Assembly: GCF_011397635.1 (NCBI RefSeq)
Contig: NC_064759.1
Location: forward strand, 12,048,428-12,112,427
Length of the DNA stretch: 64,000 nucleotides
Source: Epinephelus fuscoguttatus
Taxonomy: Eukaryota > Chordata > Actinopteri > Perciformes > Serranidae
Direction of reading: 5' to 3'
Both the position numbers and the translations under genes were made by a program. The stretch's first letter is position 1. Each line of letters starts with the position of its first letter. The notes under the pieces were generated by a model that saw nothing but the letters and a program-made list of their open reading frames with translations, was not told the origin of the DNA and made no database searches. Below are positions 29,498 to 41,732 of the stretch, piece after piece.

Positions 29498-41732
<12,235 letters not shown>

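Follow-up and report, generated by a model that had tools for sequence, protein, structure and literature searches.

A retained tandem splice donor and a diverged long-form peptide at the exon 12 end of a fish esrp1

Can a splicing switch be kept while the peptide that it controls changes? The question is raised by the esrp1 gene of a fish. According to the main text of Yang and Carstens 2017 (PMC5478600), exon 12 of mouse Esrp1 ends in a pair of identical 5' splice sites with a spacing of 12 nt. Protein with the CKLP residues is nuclear and protein without them is cytoplasmic, and a 15-residue long-form peptide is sufficient for nuclear localisation. Both isoforms are stated there to be highly and widely conserved across vertebrates. 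The spacer and consensus are described slightly inconsistently in print, with 12 nt in the Results and '3 nucleotides' in the Discussion. WT1 +/-KTS, cited in the same text, is alike in having an adjacent in-frame donor pair that adds few residues and alters the action of the protein, although the gene is unrelated and the number of residues differs.

The window, meaning the whole stretch of 64,000 nucleotides analysed here, contains exons matching esrp1 from a first exon with a Met start at 29498 to a donor at 41126. RRM1 of this gene matches human ESRP1 structure 7wrn (E 1.7e-25), RRM2 matches 2dha/7vki (best E 2.6e-50), and exons 11 and 12 together match RRM3 in 7vkj (E 1.8e-42). About 10 kb separate the first matched esrp1 exon from an upstream exon of virilizer/VIRMA (E 1.1e-73). 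In the human gene order VIRMA is beside ESRP1 and NFATC3 beside ESRP2. A search of the whole genome with exon 12 (150 of 173 candidates scored) gave two matches at E <= 0.001, one in the window and one on another contig, C2. About 23 kb from the latter is an NFATC-type gene, assigned at class level only and maybe not NFATC3. The comparison of neighbours leaves room for intervening genes at both loci. By its RRMs and its VIRMA neighbour, the window gene is identified as esrp1. The initial annotation had given it the same name, with which the VIRMA neighbour and RRM1 agree.

Sequence similarity by itself is ambiguous between esrp1 and esrp2. Over a 45-residue stretch of RRM1, human ESRP1 shows 1 difference in 45 from the window gene and 6 in 45 from the C2 gene. 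The RRM2 and RRM3 scores favour the opposite assignment (183 bits for C2 against 173 for the window gene, and 179 against 148); the reference throughout was human ESRP1. At first sight, exons 12 and 13 of the window gene look ESRP2-like and the C2 paralogue ESRP1-like. A misnamed gene, with esrp2 in the window, was considered and dropped: the nearby genes and RRM1 give esrp1, whereas the scores for RRM2 and RRM3 run counter to it.

The window gene has a 6-residue gain in the RRM2 exon (35054-35377) relative to both human ESRP1 and fish esrp2, and another in RRM3 (36530-36770, SSQRGAN region). Such gains are unusual for domains so conserved. Together with the RRM2 and RRM3 scores and an HTHTHT stretch encoded in exon 12, they mark the part of esrp1 from RRM2 to exon 12 as the more divergent copy in the fish.

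Several other features occur in the window. A RING-finger exon (2466-2765, plus strand, Pfam zf-C3HC4_2) is followed by more Cys-rich reading frames down to about 5,600. Short reading frames at 6012-6073, 14699-14788 and 15148-15258 match C2 at 19533097 and its vicinity, and probably belong to an interspersed repeat. Ahead of the earliest matched exon of esrp1, two further GTAAGT hexamers at 28891-28906 are 10 nt apart, a spacing that is not in-frame. For part of the right flank, plus strand only, neither PDB (one frame) nor Pfam (three frames) gave a match.

The tandem site consists of the following features. The label exon 12 follows the mouse numbering and is not an exon count of the fish gene; a slash marks a splice boundary.

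36530..36770, plus strand: esrp1 exon corresponding to mouse exon 12, short form (C-terminal half of RRM3 to GLSPPP-T), placed by the acceptor ..ctccag/GGT at 36530 and by frame.
36708..36731, plus strand: in-frame CA repeat in exon 12, encoding HTHTHT; the esrp2 paralogue is without it.
36771..36776, plus strand: proximal donor GTAAGT (CAT/GTAAGTCC), U1 duplex energy -5.5 kcal/mol.
36771..36782, plus strand: alternative exon end of 12 nt, which adds CKSR and makes the junction codon Arg in place of Cys, from spliced translations.
36783..36788, plus strand: distal donor GTAAGT (GAC/GTAAGTGC), U1 duplex energy -6.8 kcal/mol.
36795..36861, plus strand: eight G-runs (each of at least 3 G) in the first 100 intron nucleotides past the distal donor, a candidate intronic splicing enhancer.
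38658..38838, plus strand: exon 13, beginning GT TTA TCT CCA, which reads (C or R)-LSPP, placed by frame; its donor is at 38839.

The CA repeat may vary in length among individuals.

The exon end reads CCG CCA T/GTAAGTCCAGAC/GTAAGT; the start of exon 13, at 38658, is ..ctccag/GT TTA TCT. Spliced translations place this acceptor in frame with the donor at 36771 and with the donor at 36783. The exon 12 end thus carries two in-frame consensus donors exactly 12 nt apart. Their hexamers are identical and their exon sides unlike, CAT/ at the proximal and GAC/ at the distal site. The identical, in-frame donor pair had been proposed from a first reading of the DNA, and the coordinates, spacing and frame were right. 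Across the junction the short form reads ..GLSPPPCLSPPSYS.., that is, GLSPPP-C-LSPPSYS. In the long form CKSR is inserted and is followed by an Arg at the junction, giving CKSRR, since the junction codon, which in the short form is TGT (Cys, as in mouse), is here CGT. The first reading had recognised the CKSR insert but overlooked this codon, which puts an Arg where the mouse peptide has its second Cys.

The gene, exon end, 12-nt spacing, hexamers, frame and short-form sequence GLSPPPCLSPP are therefore all as in mouse and human Esrp1, to judge from the main text of PMC5478600. The insert with its junction residue differs: it is CKSRR in the fish, known from DNA alone, and CKLPC in mammals, so that three signal positions are changed. 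Against the mouse 15-mer the fish long form has three differences in 15 residues, L9S, P10R and C11R. It had been suggested that the spacing was kept while the encoded residues differed, and this comparison bears the suggestion out.

The effect of such changes can be read from Table 1 of the mouse study (PMC5478600). Changing CKLP to AAAA makes the protein cytoplasmic, as do P4A, P5A, P6A, K8A, K8R, L9A, C11A and L12A; C7A and L9V stay nuclear, and P10A is mixed. Of the three positions changed in the fish, two (9 and 11) are therefore ones at which alanine is cytoplasmic in mouse, and the third (10) is one at which it is mixed. In the mouse signal (pNLS), LSPPPCKLPCLSPP, the essential residues are P4, P5, P6, K8, L9, C11 and L12. 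Only 5/7 of these occur in the fish long form, which to this extent lacks the mouse signal. The initial annotation had spoken of a conserved CKLP-type localisation switch. This holds for the donor spacing, the frame and the gene, but the essential L9 and C11 and the contributing P10 have been replaced. A further proposal was that the length or position of the insert, or its first Cys-Lys, is what matters. The mouse data in Table 1 speak for the Lys, through K8A and K8R, and against the rest, with AAAA cytoplasmic and C7A nuclear (PMC5478600).

Two intact donors could in principle be an accident. Counting both strands, the window has 128,000 positions and 23 copies of GTAAGT, or 1.8e-4 per site, and by composition a perfect second donor at exactly +12 nt is expected about once in 5,600. 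The 1.047 Gb genome of the same fish contains GTAAGTN6GTAAGT 782 times (375 + 407, both strands), and many among the matches listed are (GTAA)n microsatellites. On these base rates a chance pairing of two donors was rejected.

Evidence for retention is provided by comparing fish DNA with mouse DNA. The mouse sequence, GTAAGTTACCATGTAAGT, was deduced from the peptide and donor text of PMC5478600, and the base counts depend on that deduction: all 12 of the 12 hexamer bases are kept and only 1 of the 6 spacer bases (Fisher p = 0.0007). For the distal hexamer alone against the spacer, p = 0.015. The distal hexamer is intronic in the short and the long isoform alike, so coding is no explanation for its retention. 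In this one fish genome, it is best read as being retained because the site is used. The proximal hexamer lies in coding sequence as well, which makes its retention less telling, though the same Cys-Lys is spelled TGCAAG in esrp2.

U1 pairing is good at either esrp1 donor, and alternative splicing of this exon end is likely on the evidence of the DNA. G-runs downstream of a donor are often intronic enhancers. Eight in 100 nt are reached by just 0.05% of the 100-nt windows in the 64 kb (both strands, steps of 5), and within the tandem-donor intron such windows are confined to its first part. The first 100 nt contain 0-2 G-runs at seven other located esrp1 donors and likewise at five located esrp2 donors, with none after the distal exon 12 donor of esrp2. 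The cluster is a candidate enhancer that would act on the tandem site.

A second copy of the exon end exists in the same genome.

Contig C2, about 19,541,854-19,542,053, minus strand: homologous exon end of esrp2, with the distal GTAAGT and the full mouse 15-mer.

This exon end reads CCCT/GCAAGCTCCCCT/GTAAGTGA, and with an exon 13 that starts LSPP it gives the mouse peptide at 15/15 positions. When the whole genome was searched with the peptide of exon 13, the window exon was the one strong match; the six matches at E <= 10 missed the exon of the paralogue, which was located through its LSPP motif and by tblastn, where the match was weak (E 0.003). The two genes have the homologous exon end and the distal GTAAGT in common. 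They differ at the proximal site, which in esrp2 is T/GCAAGC (C2 19541854-19541875) with a U1 energy of -0.3 against -6.2 at the distal site, and in the G-runs, of which esrp2 has zero in its first 100 intron nucleotides. From its sequence, esrp2 probably makes the long form constitutively, since its proximal site is GC. That GC may be old. One genome therefore holds both halves of a contrast: in esrp2 the peptide is kept without a good proximal donor, and in esrp1 the donors are kept and the peptide is changed.

The explanation that we prefer, and to which we give about an even chance, is a live tandem donor in esrp1 whose long form lacks a nuclear signal of the mouse type; esrp2 would be the copy that is steadily nuclear. 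Fish esrp1 would have retained, as a working donor pair, the tandem alternative 5' splice site of vertebrate Esrp1 exon 12. With either site open to U1, splicing would yield the short GLSPPPCLSPP protein, which is the cytoplasmic form in mouse, or a long protein bearing CKSRR. At the level of DNA the switch would be kept, while the long-form peptide would no longer fit the mouse nuclear signal. Nuclear Esrp would come dependably from esrp2, with its intact signal and a short form disfavoured by the proximal GC. Use of both donors and the destination of each isoform are inferred here, and the mouse-type switch may have been either lost or rebuilt in the fish. Four points tell against this explanation. 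The basic residues K-S-R-R could restore nuclear import. The peptide change may mean little in an esrp1 copy that has diverged as a whole. The GC donor of esrp2 may be used in part. Finally, the wide vertebrate conservation of both CKLP forms that the main text of PMC5478600 asserts may extend to this fish.

The first of these points leads to the alternative that survives best, an unlikely but serious one: the switch is conserved in effect, with basic CKSRR serving as a different nuclear signal in place of CKLPC. Two Arg are gained beside the conserved Lys, and the flanking GLSPPP and LSPP are unchanged. The fly orthologue offers a parallel, in that its nuclear peptide is unrelated (QSMKRSYENAFQQE) and the isoform principle is kept (PMC5478600, main text). 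However, simple monopartite, bipartite and PY patterns for nuclear localisation found no match in the fish insert, and the mouse signal is abolished by L9A, C11A or K8R singly (PMC5478600, Table 1).

A bolder extension of the preferred explanation, which we hold with little confidence, is that the switch has been split between the paralogues. The proximal GC would have locked esrp2 into its nuclear CKLP form, and the insert of esrp1 would have exchanged its role as a nuclear signal for another. A candidate for the new role is a splice-controlled phosphorylation site, RRLSPP, which is present in the long form only. RRLSPP resembles a PKA-type RRxS site and a 14-3-3-like pattern. Chance alone produces many such short patterns.

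It is also conceivable, though improbable, that the distal donor is nearly or wholly unused, that the proximal form alone matters and that the insert is drifting. The insert lacks residues that matter in mouse, the 6-residue gains in RRM2 and RRM3 and the CA repeat of exon 12 look like relaxed constraint, and esrp2 covers the nuclear form. An unused donor would be expected to decay as the spacer has, yet the distal hexamer is perfect and pairs with U1 slightly better than the proximal one.

Very unlikely is a constitutive distal donor with a proximal hexamer that merely codes for Cys-Lys-Ser: the slightly stronger distal U1 energy, the apparent use of the distal donor only in the paralogue and a Cys-Lys reading of the first five proximal bases would fit, but the paralogue encodes the same Cys-Lys with GCAAGC at the position where esrp1 has a complete consensus GTAAGT, and of two strong neighbouring donors the upstream one is usually used as well.

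The tandem-donor switch itself is already known in mammals from the main text of PMC5478600. What is new, to judge from this one genome, is the dissociation of intact donors from a diverged spacer and peptide, and the contrast with the paralogue. Neither was found in print in a search of open PMC text, where only PMC5478600 has ESRP1 and CKLP together; its main text lacks the words 'zebrafish', 'Danio' and 'fish'. Zebrafish Esrp function is the subject of PMC5703972 and PMC12633794. The words 'nuclear', 'cytoplasmic' and 'localization' are absent from the main text of the former, and 'nuclear' and 'cytoplasm' from that of the latter. A comparison of the exon 12 peptide with a collection of prokaryotic contigs gave 209 pattern matches, none confirmed as a relative.

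If both donors are used, this fish provides a natural experiment in which the splice switch is parted from the peptide signal, the mouse-essential residues being replaced while spacing and donors are held. Such a case would test what the isoform pair is kept for: nuclear import, the cytoplasmic short form or a property newly acquired by the insert. It would likewise test whether a paralogue can assume one output of an alternative-splicing switch.
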